Origin: Gammaproteobacteria bacterium
Lineage (GTDB): Bacteria; Pseudomonadota; Gammaproteobacteria; VBWC01
Assembly: GCA_006218035.1 (NCBI GenBank)
Contig: VBWC01000003.1
Span: 181,251-245,250 of the forward strand
Reading direction: 5' to 3'
Length of the DNA stretch: 64,000 nucleotides
A model generated the notes under the pieces. It was not told the origin of the DNA. It was given only the letters and a program-made list of their open reading frames with translations, and ran no database searches. Shown one piece after another: positions 8,274-36,731 of this stretch. Position 1 is the stretch's first letter. Each line of letters begins with the position of its first letter. The translations under genes were made by a program, and so were the position numbers.

Positions 8274-8307
8274 ACGACGCACATACTGGCGCTCCCGCAT
8301 GGCGCGC

Positions 8308-8328
8308 GAATCATAACGATTATGATTC
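8308..8328. promoter_or_regulatory. Perfect 9-3-9 inverted repeat (GAATCATAA cga TTATGATTC)
   Basis: A perfect palindrome lies 35 bases downstream of the cytochrome stop and about 110 bases upstream of a sigma-70 promoter. It is AT-rich and has no T-run, so it is not a typical terminator. The size and symmetry suit a dimeric regulator site; TCATAA/TTATGA arms recall Fur-superfamily boxes but no specific regulator can be named. Confidence 0.45.
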
Positions 8329-8435
8329 CTGACTTTCGTGCGCATGCGAACGGGTGTTCGATAGTCGCAAATGTGCACAAACCGGAACGATAATAAATGT
8401 TATTACCTATGAAGAGCTTATCGATACCGAGTATT

Positions 8436-27807: not shown

Positions 27808-30800
27808 TCAAAGTCGGCGGCGGCGGGGCAGGCCAAGCGACAGCGAGATCATCAGGGCCAGCAGAGTGAACCACTCGAACGACCCGCTGCCGGTGGTGGT
27901 GGTTGAACTGCCGGTAGTGGAAAGGATGGACGCCGGGCTCACCGTCGTGTCCTGGTTCCCGGTGTTGTCCGTTCTGTCGCCGTCGCTCATATAACTTTCC
28001 ACGGTATTGACGGTACGGAAGCTGCCAACGCTTTCAGGAATGACGGTGATCACGGCGGTCGCGCTGGCGCCCGCCGCGATAATGCCGAGGTTGCAGGTCA
28101 CGATGCGGCTTTTGCGGCTGCAGGTGCCCTGGCCAGGCGCAGCCGAGACATATTTCATCGTCGACAGATCTTTCATGACCACGCTGTTGTTCAGCGGGGT
28201 CGCCAGTTCGTGCGTGAGCACGACATGCTCGGCGACGATAGCGCCGATATTGGTGACGGCGACCGTGTAGGTCAGATTGGTCAGCGCCGGCACCGGGTCG
28301 GAGCTTTCCGTCACCGTGACGGCGAGATCGCCCGCGTCACCGGACAGACGCGCGACGAATGCATCGAATCCGGTGGCATTGCCGTCGGGACCGAGATCGC
28401 CGTGGCTGGTCTGCGGTGCGGTTGCGGTCAATGGCCAGTCGTTCGAGCTGGTGTAACCGGCGATGACCGCCGCCGGCGTGGCGCCTGAGGTATCGAGGGC
28501 AATGGCCATGCCGTAGTCACTGCCCTGGGCGCCGACATAGGTCGAATAATCCAGCGCACTGCCCGCCGCATCGACCTTGAGTGCAATCGCATCCGGGACG
28601 CATTGCAGGTTCGGTGTCGTCGCATTGGTCACGCAATGGCGCGACTTCACCAGGTTGATGTCATTCACCACCGGAAAGTCCGACGAGAACGTGTAACCGA
28701 CGACATAGGCGTTGCCGGCGGCGTCCACCGCCATGCCTTCGGCGCTGTCGTTGGAACCGCCGCCGATGTACGTCGAATATGCCAGCGGCGCGGCACCGTT
28801 GCTGGCCAGCTTGGTGACGAAAATATCGCTGCCACCGTCGCATTTGCCGTTCGCATCGCTGTCGCAACTGCCATCGATGGTGCCGGCTGTCGCCGGGAAA
28901 TCGACCGATGTCGTGGTGCCGGTGATATAGGCATTGCCGGAGGTGTCGACCGCGATGCCGTGACCGTAGTCCGCGTTGCTGCCGCCAAGGAAGGTGGAAA
29001 ACAGCAGCGCGTTGCCGGCCGCATTAAGCCGCGACACAAACGCGTCGAAGGTGTAGATCGTGTTGGTGCTGTTGTTGCAGGTGCCGCTGAAACCGCAGGC
29101 GGCATCGTAGGCGCCGCCGGTGACCGGGAAACCGCTGGAGGCGGTCTGGCCCGTGATGTAGGCCTCCGCGCCGGTGCTGTCGAGCGCGATATCAAACGCC
29201 GCATCCGGTCCGCTGCCGCCGAGGTAGGTCGAGTACACCAGCGCGGTCCCCGCGGCGTTCAGCTTGGTGACGAACGCATCGCCGGCGCCGCTGTGCTGGG
29301 CCTGGATCGGTCCCAGCGTCGGGAAGGTCGGCGACGTCGTGCCGCCCGCGATGAACGTCTGACCCGCGCCGTTCGCGGCAATCGCGTGGACATCGCCGTA
29401 GCCGATGAAGGTGGCATAGGTCAGCGCCGTGCCACTGCTGTCGAGTTTGGCGACGAAGATACGTTCGCCGTCGTCGCAGATGCTGTTGTTGTCGGCATCC
29501 GTGCAGGCCGTGCCGTTATAGGCGCCGCCGGTGGCCGGGAAGTCCCGCGACTGTGTCGTGCCGGTGACATAGGCATTGCCCGAATCATCGACGGCAATAT
29601 CGGCAATGCTGTCGAAACTGCCGCCGCCGAGATAGGTGGAATACACCATCTGGCCGGTGCTGTCGAACCTGGTGACGAACGCATCGGACTTGAGCAGCGC
29701 ATCGTGAAGCGTGCTGTTGCTGAATCCGCCGACCGTGCCGCTGGCCGTCACGGTCGCCGCCACGCCGTTGCTGGCGCGCGCGTCGGCATAACCGGCGGTG
29801 ACCGTATCGCCGTCGCTGACATTCAGCGTGCCGTCGTTACTGGTGCCGGCACTGGTGCTCGATGCAGTCGGCAGCACGCGGGTAAACGCGCCGGTGTTCA
29901 CGCCGGTTTCTGACAGCGCCACGGTCTCGCTCTCGCCGGTGCGGTTGTTCGACACGGTTACGGTGGTGCTTTCACTCCCGGAGGCGTTTACGTTAAGGTC
30001 CGTGTCATTGACTGTCACCGTGATGCCGTCACCGGGAAAACCGATCGACGCGATATTAACGGTATCGCCGCCGACCCGGATCGCCGTGTTCGAGGTAGTG
30101 ATCGAATTAGCGGTACCGGTACTGGTAATTTTGGACGCTGTAATTGCGCGGCTGGTCGCGACCACGGTTAACGATCCTGTCGCCGTGAACGTATCGCCGG
30201 TCTGGACGCGCATGACGCCGCTACCGGACGTACCGGCAGTTGATGCCAGAAACGCGGGCACACCGCCGGAAAAGACGCCGCTGTTGACGTCTGTTTCGGT
30301 CAACGTAACGTTTTCGGTCTCACCGGTGCGGTCGTTTGCGACAGGGACGATGATTGTTTCGACGGCAGCGGTATTGTTGTTGAGTATATCGAGGGGATCG
30401 GTCAGGCCGAGGCTGGCTTCATTGATGGTGACCGTCACCGGTACCGGATAACTGGCCGTCAGATCGTCGCCCGACTGCACGTTAAGTGTGCCGTCGTTGT
30501 CGGTGCCGGCGGTGGTGCCGAACGTCGTCGATACTGTGCCGGTAAAAAACCCCGAATCGATCGCAGACTCGATTACCGAGACCGACTCGCTTTCGCCGGT
30601 GGCGCTGTTAACCAATTGCACAAAGCCCGAGTCTATACGGGTGGCGTCTATATTCAGCGGGTCGTCTTTGACGATGACCGTCTCCGTATCGCCGGCTGCT
30701 GCAACAGGCCCGATCATCACGCTGAAATTCGGCACGATTGCAGTTGCGCTAATTGTCGCGGCCCCGCCACTGACGGTCTGCACGTCATTATACTTCGCGC

Positions 30801-32136
30801 TGATCGAGCCGCCGCCGAGCACCACCAGCACGCCGTCGTTATTCGCGCCGGCGACGGTGGCAAGCGTCACCGGCAAGGTGCCGGCGAACGCGCCGGTGTT
30901 GACGCCGGTCTCGGTCAGAATGACCGACTCGCTTTCCGCCGTCGTATCGTTGACCACGGTTACTGTCACGGTCTGCAATGTTGCCGCGTTGGTGTTCAGG
31001 TCCGGATCACTGACCGAGATAGTGACCGTGCTGTTCGGCAGCGTGACCGCTGTGATCGCCACCGAGTTATTACTGTTGCAGTCTACCGATGCGTTGTTGC
31101 CGCAGCGCGTATCGAGCGAGCCGATGACGGTCGGGAAATTGCCGGACAGGGTGCGACCGGCGACGTAGATATTGCCGCTGCTATCGACCGCGACGCCAAA
31201 GGCGCGGTCGTCTCCGGCGCCGTGCAACACGCTGCTGGTGGCGCCGATATCGACCGATGCCGACCCGCCGAAGTAGGCCGAATAGTCCAGTACCGGATCG
31301 ATCACCAGCGGTAGCGTCGTGTCATAGCCTGCCAGCTGGAAACCGATATGGCCGTCGTCGCTATATATATAGGAGCCCGCGACCGGCTGCCGCTGGCCGT
31401 TGTGTTGCTGGTAGATGACCGGCGCGTGCTGGACGATGTTCGTGCCGCCGACCGCAAGACGCAGCGTGCCGTCATTCTCGATCGTTACCGCGTCTGCGCC
31501 GTCGAATGCCAGCCGGATAACGCCGGGATCGGCGCCCGGCGCGACGACAAAATCGTATTCGAGCTTGCGCCCGTTGCCGTAGTAGACGAGATCGATATCC
31601 GGATAAACGCCTTCATAGCGCACGCGACCGTAGTTGGGCACGTTCACCGTCCAGTCTTCCGGCCGGTCGCCTTTCAGGTAATGGCTTTTGCCCGCGCGCC
31701 GCTGTTCGCCGGTGACAGCGGGTGACAGGCGGCTGCCTGGCGTGGCAATGCGCAGCACCGCAGCGTCGCCGGCCGCGGCGTTATCGCGCGGCGCGTTGTG
31801 CAACATGATTACCGCCGTACCGCCGGTCAGATAAAGTTCGTGATCCAGGCCGCGCGCGAAATAATCGACACGGGCATCCACCTGGCCGCGGTTGGCTTCA
31901 AAGTAGACCGGCGCACTGGTCAATGAATGAACGGGAACGGAGCGAAGGGTGGGGTCAGTCCGGGCCGTAGCGCCAGACTCTGCCGCAGGAAGCCCATAGC
32001 CCAGCCACGCGATCGATGCCGAAACAACGGCAACTGCGCAAAGGCCTGACAACGGTGCGAGCAGTCTGTTCCCGTGTGTAATCAAAACGATGACCCCTGA
32101 GATTGGCCGGACTATACCATATCGGCGCGACGCCAT
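27808..32136 (-). CDS. Giant SBBP beta-propeller surface protein with inserted Ig-like repeats
   Basis: 1442 residues. Residues 25-50 are an export segment. Residues 75-290 form the DUF7948-type N-terminal domain (YFEANRGQVDARVDYFARG). SBBP propeller blades (YSTYLGGSGxDxxxxIAVDxxGNAYVTGxT) begin near 295, are interrupted from about 345 to 800 by some five Ig-like units with ETVTVTVxNxxTGESETVxLTETGxNTGxF signatures, then resume to about 1240. A DUF11-like domain (LTYTVAVTNIGAIVAEHVVL) follows. The tail GSGSFEWFTLLALMISLSLGLPRRRRL is a CTERM-type sorting signal, like GlyGly-CTERM/rhombosortase substrates, so the protein is probably exported and processed at the cell surface. Adhesion is the usual guess. 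No sortase is in the window. Confidence 0.85.
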   Translation of the reverse strand: MASRRYGIVRPISGVIVLITHGNRLLAPLSGLCAVAVVSASIAWLGYGLPAAESGATARTDPTLRSVPVHSLTSAPVYFEANRGQVDARVDYFARGLDHELYLTGGTAVIMLHNAPRDNAAAGDAAVLRIATPGSRLSPAVTGEQRRAGKSHYLKGDRPEDWTVNVPNYGRVRYEGVYPDIDLVYYGNGRKLEYDFVVAPGADPGVIRLAFDGADAVTIENDGTLRLAVGGTNIVQHAPVIYQQHNGQRQPVAGSYIYSDDGHIGFQLAGYDTTLPLVIDPVLDYSAYFGGSASVDIGATSSVLHGAGDDRAFGVAVDSSGNIYVAGRTLSGNFPTVIGSLDTRCGNNASVDCNSNNSVAITAVTLPNSTVTISVSDPDLNTNAATLQTVTVTVVNDTTAESESVILTETGVNTGAFAGTLPVTLATVAGANNDGVLVVLGGGSISAKYNDVQTVSGGAATISATAIVPNFSVMIGPVAAAGDTETVIVKDDPLNIDATRIDSGFVQLVNSATGESESVSVIESAIDSGFFTGTVSTTFGTTAGTDNDGTLNVQSGDDLTASYPVPVTVTINEASLGLTDPLDILNNNTAAVETIIVPVANDRTGETENVTLTETDVNSGVFSGGVPAFLASTAGTSGSGVMRVQTGDTFTATGSLTVVATSRAITASKITSTGTANSITTSNTAIRVGGDTVNIASIGFPGDGITVTVNDTDLNVNASGSESTTVTVSNNRTGESETVALSETGVNTGAFTRVLPTASSTSAGTSNDGTLNVSDGDTVTAGYADARASNGVAATVTASGTVGGFSNSTLHDALLKSDAFVTRFDSTGQMVYSTYLGGGSFDSIADIAVDDSGNAYVTGTTQSRDFPATGGAYNGTACTDADNNSICDDGERIFVAKLDSSGTALTYATFIGYGDVHAIAANGAGQTFIAGGTTSPTFPTLGPIQAQHSGAGDAFVTKLNAAGTALVYSTYLGGSGPDAAFDIALDSTGAEAYITGQTASSGFPVTGGAYDAACGFSGTCNNSTNTIYTFDAFVSRLNAAGNALLFSTFLGGSNADYGHGIAVDTSGNAYITGTTTSVDFPATAGTIDGSCDSDANGKCDGGSDIFVTKLASNGAAPLAYSTYIGGGSNDSAEGMAVDAAGNAYVVGYTFSSDFPVVNDINLVKSRHCVTNATTPNLQCVPDAIALKVDAAGSALDYSTYVGAQGSDYGMAIALDTSGATPAAVIAGYTSSNDWPLTATAPQTSHGDLGPDGNATGFDAFVARLSGDAGDLAVTVTESSDPVPALTNLTYTVAVTNIGAIVAEHVVLTHELATPLNNSVVMKDLSTMKYVSAAPGQGTCSRKSRIVTCNLGIIAAGASATAVITVIPESVGSFRTVNTVESYMSDGDRTDNTGNQDTTVSPASILSTTGSSTTTTGSGSFEWFTLLALMISLSLGLPRRRRL

Positions 32137-33882: not shown

Positions 33883-34686
33883 TTACCCCCGGCGCCACTT
33901 CCGGGCGGCCCATATCCAGAATCCGAAGAGCGCGAGAACAACAAACAGCACGCCGACAGCATCGACAAAGTACTTGCCCCATTTGCCGACAAAAGGCCCG
34001 CCGTGTATGTCCAGCGCGATCCGTTCCAGCGGCAACACCGTGGTGCGATAGGCCCGGACGATGCTTGCCTGCAACGGCGGCGGCGGTGCCTGTGGCTCGG
34101 CCCAGGCGATTGCGACCACCTGGAGCGGGAAAGTGCTGACGCGATCGGTATATTCCCGCCATTCAAGAAAGGTGGCGTCCGTCGAGTATTGGCCATGGGC
34201 GGCCTGCACGATGAGGTTGCCGGAGTTATCCACCCCGATACGTGTCATGCCGGCCGGGACACCGGCGGTACCGGTCAGGCGCTCAATTATTCCGCCCTCC
34301 GGGGTCATCAGGACCACGGAACCCTCGAGCCCCACGACCAGCACGCCTTCCATTACCAGCGCGCCGACCAGCACGCCGGTAAGGTCGTGGATTCGATGGT
34401 CGTTCAGGTAGAGTTGGTCACCCAGTTGCGTGACCCAAAGGTTGTCGGCGTGGTAACTGACCGTGTTATCCGGCGCCTTGATGTCATACCAGTCGAGCAG
34501 CAACCCGGACTCGACAAACCGCGAGTCAAGTTTGAGCAGCTCAGTGTGGTTAAGCATGATGCCGGTGACGGCGAGAACCAGGATGAATGCGAGGCCCGTC
34601 AGCCCCAGATATCGGTGCCAGAGTGTGACGTGATGGGTTTTGGAGCGCTTCTTTTTGCTATCAACCGGATTTTCTGGACTGGACAT
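33883..34686 (-). CDS. PepSY-associated TM protein (membrane electron-transfer partner)
   Basis: 267 residues. Helix 1 (GLAFILVLAVTGIMLNH) has the typical TGIxLNH turn of PepSY_TM proteins, with a haem- or flavin-linked His. A long periplasmic loop (residues 55-215) precedes IHGGPFVGKWGKYFVDAVGV, which starts the C-terminal helix (VLFVVLALFGFWIW). PepSY TM proteins usually pass electrons across the membrane to periplasmic FMN proteins. The gene overlaps the FMN-binding gene by 26 bases, confirming coupling. Confidence 0.85.
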   Translation of the reverse strand: MSSPENPVDSKKKRSKTHHVTLWHRYLGLTGLAFILVLAVTGIMLNHTELLKLDSRFVESGLLLDWYDIKAPDNTVSYHADNLWVTQLGDQLYLNDHRIHDLTGVLVGALVMEGVLVVGLEGSVVLMTPEGGIIERLTGTAGVPAGMTRIGVDNSGNLIVQAAHGQYSTDATFLEWREYTDRVSTFPLQVVAIAWAEPQAPPPPLQASIVRAYRTTVLPLERIALDIHGGPFVGKWGKYFVDAVGVLFVVLALFGFWIWAARKWRRG

Positions 34687-35200
34687 AGTGATCTAGATAC
34701 AGCGCCAGGCGCGCAAGCTTCGTCAGGGCTCTGACCGACAGCGTCGCACCCGAGATCGTATCGATCGAACGATTCAGCTGCCTGTCAGACTGAAGTACCG
34801 CCCCCTTAAACTGGTCCGTGAAAAAGGTGTATTGTACTTCCTGTCCGCGCGTTTCGCGATAGATCAAGACCTTGACCCGATCGACCTTGCCATGGTCGAC
34901 GACAATACCGGTGGTAATCGGCCGTTCCTTGCCGATTTCTTCGAGTATCCATGCGGAACGCCCGTCGCGTTCCCAGTAACGAATACGGAGTGCCTGGAGG
35001 GGATGCCCCATGATGCCGGTCGCATCATCGGCGAGATCCGCCGTCAGCCATAGGACCTGCGGTTTGGGGACATCACCTGCGAAGACGTCATGGACGAAGT
35101 CTTGCGGATCCTGGAGTACGTTTTCGGTAGCGAAAACACTGCCTGTAACCAGGAGCAACATCGACAGCAGAAGAGCGCATTGTGTCCACGTGTTTTTCAC
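34661..35200 (-). CDS. FMN-binding periplasmic flavoprotein
   Basis: 179 residues from the GTG at 35200, behind CAAGG; a TTG 18 bases upstream is the alternative. Signal peptide ALLLSMLLLVTGSVFA. The C-terminal SGATLSVRAL carries the flavinylation motif (D/SGAT, FMN ester to Thr by ApbE). The mid part (YTFFTDQFKGAVLQSD) matches the domain. It is expected to be covalently flavinylated outside the inner membrane and to take electrons from the overlapping PepSY gene. No apbE in the window. Confidence 0.88.
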   Translation of the reverse strand: MKNTWTQCALLLSMLLLVTGSVFATENVLQDPQDFVHDVFAGDVPKPQVLWLTADLADDATGIMGHPLQALRIRYWERDGRSAWILEEIGKERPITTGIVVDHGKVDRVKVLIYRETRGQEVQYTFFTDQFKGAVLQSDRQLNRSIDTISGATLSVRALTKLARLALYLDHYVQSRKSG

Positions 35201-35232
35201 AGGTGATGCCTTGACCAAAGCCCTGGCTACGG

Positions 35233-36378
35233 TTAGTGGAAGCTGTAGCCTACACCGAGATTGATCGCATATTTCTCGGTGGTCGTACCCTTCGAGTAGT
35301 CTTCGTAGTCGGCTTTGAAGACGACGTTTTCATGCGGCCAGAAGTTCACACCGACATTGGTCTGTTCTTCCTCGCTGTCGGTCGAATCGCCAGCGGCGTT
35401 ATCCCACTGGTTAAAGCGGGCGAAGACACCCCACTGGTCATTGATGCGATAGGACGGCTCAATATAGAAGCCTTCCTGTTCATCCCTGCCTAGTGCTTTC
35501 ACCGCCGCACCGTCGATGTCCCACATCGCGTACAACCAGCGCAGGCCAAAGGGCCCGAAATTATGAACGCCATGAAGCTCCAACAGGGTCGCACTGTGCT
35601 CATCCGAACCCGCAGCGCCCTGGGCGATATCCGACTGCTCCTGTAAAGATAACGCCACTTCATGGCCTGCCATGCCGGTGAATTTCACGCGGCCGGTAAG
35701 GGCGTAGTCATTCGCAACGGCCTGCGATACCTTTTGCCGTCCACTGCGGACGTTACCGACAGCGTTGTTCAGCCCGGAGGTCAGCGCAACATCGTAGCCC
35801 CAACCCGGTGCCACCTCACCGCTCAGGCCAACGCCGCCTTCCCACCAGGTGGTCGGGATAATCGCGTTTTCGACCGGGTTGCGTTCGACGCCATAAAAGC
35901 TGTCCGGTTCGTGTGTTTCGTTCATGATACCGACGGGCAACAGGAACAGACCCGTCTTGACACGGTTGCTGTCATTCAGATCGATTTCGACATAGGCCTG
36001 TTCGAGTTCGATTTCACCATTGCCGCCGCCGTTTTCGAAGAATGAATGTTCGAGTTCCAGCTCGGAATACATCCTGATGCGATCGGTAAAGTCATGGCCG
36101 AAGAACAGTACGAAACGGTGAAAATCGATTTCACGCTTCGTGGCAGTTCCAGCCGGGGTATCGGTATGAATGCTGTTGTAGTGCATCTCGCCGTAGCCGC
36201 CAAGGTGCGTATTGCCGGCACCGCCGCCACCGCGCGATTCCATCGCGTGGGTCGTTGCGTTCATCTGTTCTTCGAGATTCTTCACCCTGTCTTCCATCGA
36301 TGCTGCCTGCGCCAGTGAACCGGTGGCAAAAACGGTGGCCGCGACGGCGGACCAGATCAGTTTCTTTTGATATTTCAT
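35233..36378 (-). CDS. Outer-membrane porin, first gene of the FMN/PepSY operon
   Basis: 381 residues from ATG 36378 behind GAGGAG. Signal peptide FATGSLAQA, a short coiled-coil (MEDRVKNLEEQMNATTHAME) then a barrel of strands: THLGGYGEMHYN, VLFFGHDFTDRIRMYSELELEH, ending GVGYSFH with terminal aromatic. This is the porin/phosphate-selective-like type with coiled-coil trimer stalk. Being co-transcribed with a flavoprotein and a membrane electron carrier is unusual for a porin and suggests import of a redox-active substrate such as iron or metal chelates. Confidence 0.85.
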   Translation of the reverse strand: MKYQKKLIWSAVAATVFATGSLAQAASMEDRVKNLEEQMNATTHAMESRGGGGAGNTHLGGYGEMHYNSIHTDTPAGTATKREIDFHRFVLFFGHDFTDRIRMYSELELEHSFFENGGGNGEIELEQAYVEIDLNDSNRVKTGLFLLPVGIMNETHEPDSFYGVERNPVENAIIPTTWWEGGVGLSGEVAPGWGYDVALTSGLNNAVGNVRSGRQKVSQAVANDYALTGRVKFTGMAGHEVALSLQEQSDIAQGAAGSDEHSATLLELHGVHNFGPFGLRWLYAMWDIDGAAVKALGRDEQEGFYIEPSYRINDQWGVFARFNQWDNAAGDSTDSEEEQTNVGVNFWPHENVVFKADYEDYSKGTTTEKYAINLGVGYSFH

Positions 36379-36639
36379 GAGAAGCTCCTCGTACATGTGT
36401 GTAGTTGTAATTCGTGCCCCCCTCTACAAACTGCGAGAGGTTCGCCAGGACTGCGTGACCGTGGCGTTATTGATCGAAAGCTAACTGATTCGTATTAACA
36501 CCGACTGAACGCACGACGCCTCCATCGAACATCATCGGTGCCGATACGGGGCGGACTGCGTCACCGCCAAAGAACAAGAGGGTTACTGCGTAGGACAACC
36601 AGAAAACTACAACCCGGAATTATCGTTCTTATGCGTGGC
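36379..36639 (-). other. Long leader of the porin operon
   Basis: About 255 bases lie between the predicted transcription start and the porin ATG. I found no reading frame with a ribosome site and no known riboswitch motif. It may hold RNA structure or a small-RNA target, as in other porin leaders. Confidence 0.3.
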
Positions 36640-36669
36640 AGTATAACTACAACATAATTCGATATGCAA
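36640..36669 (-). promoter_or_regulatory. Candidate promoter TTGCAT-18-TATACT for the porin operon
   Basis: Minus-strand TTGCAT (36669-36664) and TATACT (36645-36640) with an 18-base spacer, in the gap between the porin operon and the MacB-like permease genes. Confidence 0.45.
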
Positions 36670-36731
36670 TGCTGCCAGAGACTTCCGTGTTGCGTGCAGA
36701 CAACAACGCGGTGCGGTCGATCCGGTCGATG

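Follow-up and report, generated by a model that had tools for sequence, protein, structure and literature searches.

A 64,000-nucleotide stretch of gammaproteobacterial DNA (GTDB lineage VBWC01; assembly GCA_006218035.1, contig VBWC01000003.1, positions 181,251 to 245,250), called here the window, hosts three adjacent genes encoding a porin, an FMN_bind protein carrying an SGAT motif and a PepSY_TM membrane protein. An initial annotation of the window had placed the three head to tail, with an overlap between the last two, and both coordinates and Pfam matches confirm this arrangement (Table 1). The order of transcription is porin, FMN_bind, PepSY_TM, and only 14 bases separate the first two genes.

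Table 1. Features of the porin-FMN_bind-PepSY_TM locus (positions in the window)
Feature	Position	Strand	Remarks
Porin gene	36378-35233	minus	381 aa; PF07396, 30.9 bits (cut-off 20.9); alternative ATG at 36396
FMN_bind gene	35218-34661	minus	185 aa, TTG start as listed; PF04205, 36.2 (cut-off 22)
PepSY_TM gene	34686-33883	minus	267 aa; PF03929, 46.1 (cut-off 28.8)
FMN_bind/PepSY gene overlap	34661-34686	minus	exactly 26 bases
Non-coding gap upstream of porin	36379-36731	minus	353 bases
Weak Fur-box-like site TTAATACGAATCAGTTAGCTT	36478-36498	minus	120 bases before porin ATG; 4.1 bits
Porin residues 147-178, loop between strands 5 and 6	35845-35940	minus	likely constriction loop, as judged from its position
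SGAT, residues 156-159 of FMN_bind protein	34753-34742	minus	flavin expected to be attached at T159

The porin, FMN_bind and PepSY genes are a conserved module, associated beyond chance. A contig search in which the FMN protein was the sole query returned 158 confirmed relatives. Loci L001-L005 were omitted and, because several of the loci L006-L035 repeat contigs of named ones, only 80 named loci were kept for counts. Comparative genomics of porin-FMN-PepSY operons had been proposed in the initial annotation as a check; all three genes, identified by profiles built by script, were found in the same order at 74/80 loci. Two of the six exceptions (L062 and L079) begin at a contig end. At L089 a CCP_MauG peroxidase gene occupies the porin position, and at L045, L076 and L086 the FMN_bind gene and the porin are found without an adjoining PepSY gene. 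Since the genes flanking the trio vary between lineages, the trio travels as a unit.

The same association is evident at the genome level. Strong FMN matches (E ≤1e-25) were found in 74 of 369 gammaproteobacterial genomes, set and overlaps being read off tables by eye; nine genomes with weaker FMN matches (G067, G121, G133, G150, G153, G245, G261, G327, G342) fall outside the 74. The porin is present in 73/74 strong-FMN genomes, versus 11/295 of the others (Fisher p = 5e-64), and in the sole strong-FMN genome without porin the contig ends within the locus (L138). Seven of the 11 porin-only genomes were looked at: L135, L136, L137, L139, L140 and L141 were opened, and G245 was judged from coordinates. 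ApbE was found in 70/74 trio genomes and in 193/295 others (p 5e-8), a test inflated by shared ancestry and by other ApbE clients.

Crude matches to the Fur consensus are frequent upstream of the porin among relatives. An unsupervised motif search, carried out on 72 upstream regions from which the window and its sister species had been left out, returned TAAATGAGAATGATTTGCATT with a log-likelihood of 799; the two shuffled sets reached 83 and 79. When 76 regions were scored, window and sister included, the motif reached ≥12 bits in 68, most sites lying at about -80 to -100; among the 76, L036 comes from the sister species, L052 has a truncated gene start and L108 contains N. Because 72 of the 76 scored regions were also candidates for matrix building, comparison was made with the shuffled sets, with E. 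coli and with the frequency of sites outside promoters. Sites of ≥15 bits number 73 within the upstream regions (3.6/kb) versus 22 elsewhere in the loci (0.03/kb). When 30 kb of DNA from E. coli K-12 were scored, every site of ≥12 bits fell within the fepA/fes, fepD/entS and fepB/entC gaps, all textbook Fur promoters; hence, the upstream motif in relatives is a Fur box. What is looked for in a Fur regulon, a Fur box upstream in relatives, is found in this large majority of the regions, and points to iron.

Genes found next to the trio in relatives are also iron-related in several instances. At L081 the trio has feoB downstream, and at L152 feoB is found further away on that side. L150 and L151 carry it ahead of the porin gene and in the same orientation; at L141 and L153 feoB and the porin gene are divergently oriented, and Fur boxes occupy the space between them. 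At L040 the trio is followed by a gene encoding a SBP_bac_6 solute-binding protein and then, by eye, by permease- and ATPase-like frames. At L064 a TonB receptor gene lies ahead of the trio; ferritin-like genes adjoin the trio at L070 and L047, and apbE does so at L066. The idea that FeoB is an obligatory partner of the trio gained no support, as the family search found it in 37/74 trio genomes versus 121/295 others (p 0.19).

Variants of the module have been identified as well. In a distant one (L140:3751-6535), porin, FMN_bind and ApbE genes are in line behind a 26.2-bit Fur box. In another (L139:3317-5780), porin and FMN_bind genes are followed, in the PepSY place, by a 171-aa frame which has no Pfam match and is membrane-like by eye; a 14-bit Fur-like site is found upstream of this variant operon. 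Lone porins, accompanied by neither FMN_bind nor PepSY, are located behind Fur-like boxes at L135:4062-5288 (21.0 bits) and L136:5465-6724 (14.8 bits). A small conserved protein (cluster c23) adjoins the trio at L037:6287-6793, L039:6304-6804 and L061:2972-3454; the L039 copy was tested against Pfam and gave no match.

The region upstream of the porin in the window has features of its own. A strong Fur box was not found there. The weak site listed in Table 1 is equalled in 28/1000 shuffles of the region, and recurs in the sister species; as the surrounding sequence is for the most part 93-97% identical in the two, this sharing is no evidence of selection. Judging from the sequence, Fur control of the window's own operon is plausible. 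The genome hosts one Fur, one FeoB and three TonB receptors. A site of 11.1 bits precedes one receptor gene by about 390 bases, the other two being without a clear site. The strongest Fur-like site scored in the genome (17.8 bits, L149:3116-3138, contig C31) is followed, some 350 bases on, by a gene for a repeat-rich protein, and precedes no recognisable iron gene. Within the window, the best site found by the Fur matrix is palindromic (8307-8331, 9.7 bits). A long leader of about 255 bases, reported as unexplained in the initial annotation, could not be established, as the non-coding gap measures 353 bases and a sigma70-type scan detected no promoter in it. A structured leader, or riboswitch, was rejected because folding is no better than in shuffles (z -0.18), and Rfam models gave nothing at gathering score over the leader, the only match being a snoRNA model (E 3.6). 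The 97% identity of the leader to that of the sister species was similarly discarded as a signal, most surrounding genes being equally alike.

The porin consists of a signal sequence, a coiled-coil (residues 25-47) and a barrel, for which the predicted model (pLDDT 85.2) gives 16 strands. The solved folds nearest to the model are those of OprP (Z 27.1, 3.9 A, 308 residues aligned) and OprO (Z 26.7, 2.9 A, 298 aligned), and PF07396 is matched by 42/50 members of the porin family. Of the 35 invariant columns, 12 are found in the loop between strands 5 and 6 (enrichment p 3e-6), which is where porins of this type have their constriction loop. The porin region (35140-36340) is only 77% identical at the DNA level to that of the sister species (L036), versus 93-97% around, and the edges of the divergent tract are sharp. 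Third codon positions of the porin are 60% identical, versus 86-91% in the surroundings. The pattern looks like an exchange of porin alleles, as may be expected for a surface-exposed protein.

The FMN_bind protein features a signal-like stretch, judged by eye, at the N terminus. An alignment of 39 sequences shows no variation in the tract ILEEIGKE or in the GAT of SGATLS, and G157, A158 and T159 are accordingly unchanged in 39/39 relatives. A search for solved structures with sequence similarity to the family gave none at E ≤0.1. ApbE, the absence of which from the genome had been indicated beforehand as a reason to abandon the proposal of flavin electron transfer, is encoded by a single-copy gene (E 4e-77). 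Both observations bear out the proposal that the FMN_bind/PepSY pair works in flavin electron transfer, and we infer that ApbE attaches covalent FMN to the threonine of SGAT. The genome has one other FMN_bind gene, located by eye within an rnf-like cluster (L148); a further PepSY_TM protein was not found in the genome.

In the model of the PepSY_TM protein (pLDDT 92.1) two helices (residues 16-46 and 231-266) embrace a sheet domain spanning residues 70-195 approximately. Three histidines, H24, H47 and H228, are conserved, which suggests that the protein may bind haem. The family profile matches FoxB (E 4e-9) in four pieces: FoxB is made of two such units, the window protein of one, and H24, H47 and H228 fall on FoxB histidines. 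The sheet domain replaces the PepSY domain, and resembles three propeller blades. It could be superimposed on a NHL domain (Z 9.8, 4.0 A, 114 aligned), on 4a2l (Z 9.3, 2.9 A, 109 aligned) and on a three-blade fragment which assembles into a nine-bladed ring (Z 8.0, 3.0 A, 104 aligned), Z values which barely exceed those of unrelated models. It may be speculated from the model that two units would give a four-helix bundle and six blades.

In the window, a MacAB-like efflux set (41106-36732) is located upstream of the trio on the same strand, and a gene encoding a HU-type DNA-binding protein (33752-33369) downstream. The interval 27808-32136 encodes a surface protein of 1442 aa, in which DUF7948, SBBP beta-propeller repeats and DUF11 are recognised.

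All in all, the trio is likely to be one operon for reductive iron acquisition. Fur represses when iron is plentiful, so the operon would be made when iron is scarce. Iron shortage, which in relatives would lift repression by Fur, would lead to production of the porin, and through it small ferric chelates would pass the outer membrane independently of TonB. The soluble periplasmic FMN_bind protein, flavinylated by ApbE, would reduce Fe(III) to Fe(II) and free the iron. Electrons may come from the quinol pool, or from the cytosol, via the putatively haem-binding PepSY_TM protein which, being half the size of FoxB, would probably act as a dimer. Fe(II) could then be taken up by FeoB or by a different importer, and at loci with an adjacent ferric-type ABC transporter the iron may enter by this route. 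The initial annotation had envisaged a dedicated porin admitting an acceptor from outside, for example a Fe(III) chelate. The class-wide tie of the porin to the pair and the Fur motif agree with this notion, a ferric chelate being the plausible substrate.

The same genes may be read differently. The porin could pass ferrous iron, or ions generally, the FMN/PepSY pair merely keeping periplasmic iron reduced. Fur-controlled porins have been predicted by Rodionov et al. (2004, PMC545781), and ferrous iron transport is suggested in the part of that text dealing with them; the trio lies directly beside feoB at L150, L151 and L153, and the porin of L135 and L136 has a Fur box and no pair. This explanation looks nonetheless rather unlikely, as the pairing of porin and FMN gene in all but one of the FMN-positive genomes suggests coupled work, and FeoB is absent, by family search, from 37/74 trio genomes. 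Much less credit is given to the pair as reductase of another acceptor, such as metal oxyanions, peroxide or a disulfide, with Fur control reflecting the cost of haem and iron. The model of ExtI, the porin of a selenite/tellurite reduction operon, is matched by 6/50 porins (best E 1.5e-8), and the peroxidase gene replacing the porin at L089 would fit such a role; against it, the operon appears to be made under iron scarcity and its neighbours are iron genes. A different question concerns the window copy alone, as the genus may have lost Fur control, the operon being constitutive or under another regulator. Chances that this occurred are only slightly short of even. Both genomes of the genus have just the 4.1-bit site, equalled in 67/950 GC-matched stretches; yet the site is near the usual place (-120, versus about -80 to -100 in most relatives), and the genome retains the Fur protein.

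Reductive iron acquisition remains the preferred interpretation, and several observations weigh against it. The site upstream of the porin in the window is close to chance when stretches of like GC content are compared, and is equalled also in 49/2142 stretches of its own genome; the Fur matrix found no site at the feoB of that genome. FeoB is not enriched in trio genomes, and the PepSY gene is missing at 3/80 loci. The porin can work without the pair, since it is found alone behind Fur boxes at L135 and L136, which represent one family. PF07396 carries a phosphate name, and passage of ferric chelates is a role that we infer for the porin. Experiments on any member of the trio were not found in the literature searched.

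Ferric siderophores are generally thought to require TonB-dependent receptors for passage through the outer membrane. The conservation of a porin together with a putative periplasmic flavin reductase, and its link to Fur, suggest that many environmental gammaproteobacteria may take up small ferric chelates passively, at little cost in energy. The trio could tentatively be regarded, although the odds are rather against it, as a widespread and undescribed TonB-independent machine for reductive iron uptake, made of a Fur-controlled porin, a flavinylated reductase and a half-FoxB cytochrome, the dimer of which would simultaneously complete a haem bundle of four helices and offer the flavoprotein a platform in the form of a six-bladed propeller. 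Reductive iron acquisition by the trio would assign a function to FMN_bind/PepSY pairs, and would offer a small system for learning how electrons pass from a membrane cytochrome to a flavinylated protein.

Parts of the trio have counterparts in known systems. Selectivity of OprO and OprP for phosphate depends on an arginine ladder. The window porin resembles both in the PF07396 score above cut-off and in the 16-strand fold, and differs for the low identity (about 17-18% over the aligned part), the operon and the apparent regulator. LbtU-type proteins are TonB-independent siderophore porins, and share with the window porin the concept of iron entering via a TonB-independent outer-membrane protein; the LbtU model is not among the best 25 of the 88 families listed for the porin alignment. 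LbtU is named in the portion of PMC8891985 considered here. The genes called psp in Geobacter metallireducens and Desulfuromonas (PMC545781) similarly encode Fur-boxed porins, weakly PF07396-like, for which iron transport was suggested; they are likened here by description only, and differ in that the passages on psp mention no FMN_bind/PepSY partner.

PepSY-like systems with flavinylated partners have been linked to iron reduction (Méheust et al. 2021, eLife, PMC8238504), and members are described in the same text as Fur-repressed in Shewanella and Caulobacter. The trio shares with them a PF03929 membrane protein beside a flavinylation substrate and the proposed role in iron reduction. It also has several of the features that define these systems, namely a PF03929/PF16357 protein clustered with a FMN_bind or ApbE gene, a threonine-bearing motif (SGAT) and ApbE in the genome. 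In contrast, the partners described in that text are DUF2271/DUF4198 proteins and TonB receptors. The word porin is absent from the body of the article as accessed, and clusters of this kind may stand in its supplementary tables. Descriptions of porin-FMN_bind-PepSY operons were not found in the open full-text literature searched, a set outside which subscription papers and supplements fall.

FoxB/PiuB-type reductases (PDB 7ABW; PMC10866019, PMC11334425), as far as they are portrayed in the parts of these sources used here, resemble the PepSY_TM protein in having helices around a periplasmic domain and three aligned histidines, which in the window protein occupy the haem-ligand positions. FoxB has two tandem units, four helices and two PepSY domains, whereas the model of the window protein shows a single unit, in which two helices flank a sheet domain that is propeller-like. 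PepSY-like flavinylated systems, FoxB-type reductases and Fur-controlled porins were thus known already; their combination with a dedicated porin and a half-size carrier did not turn up in the open literature searched.

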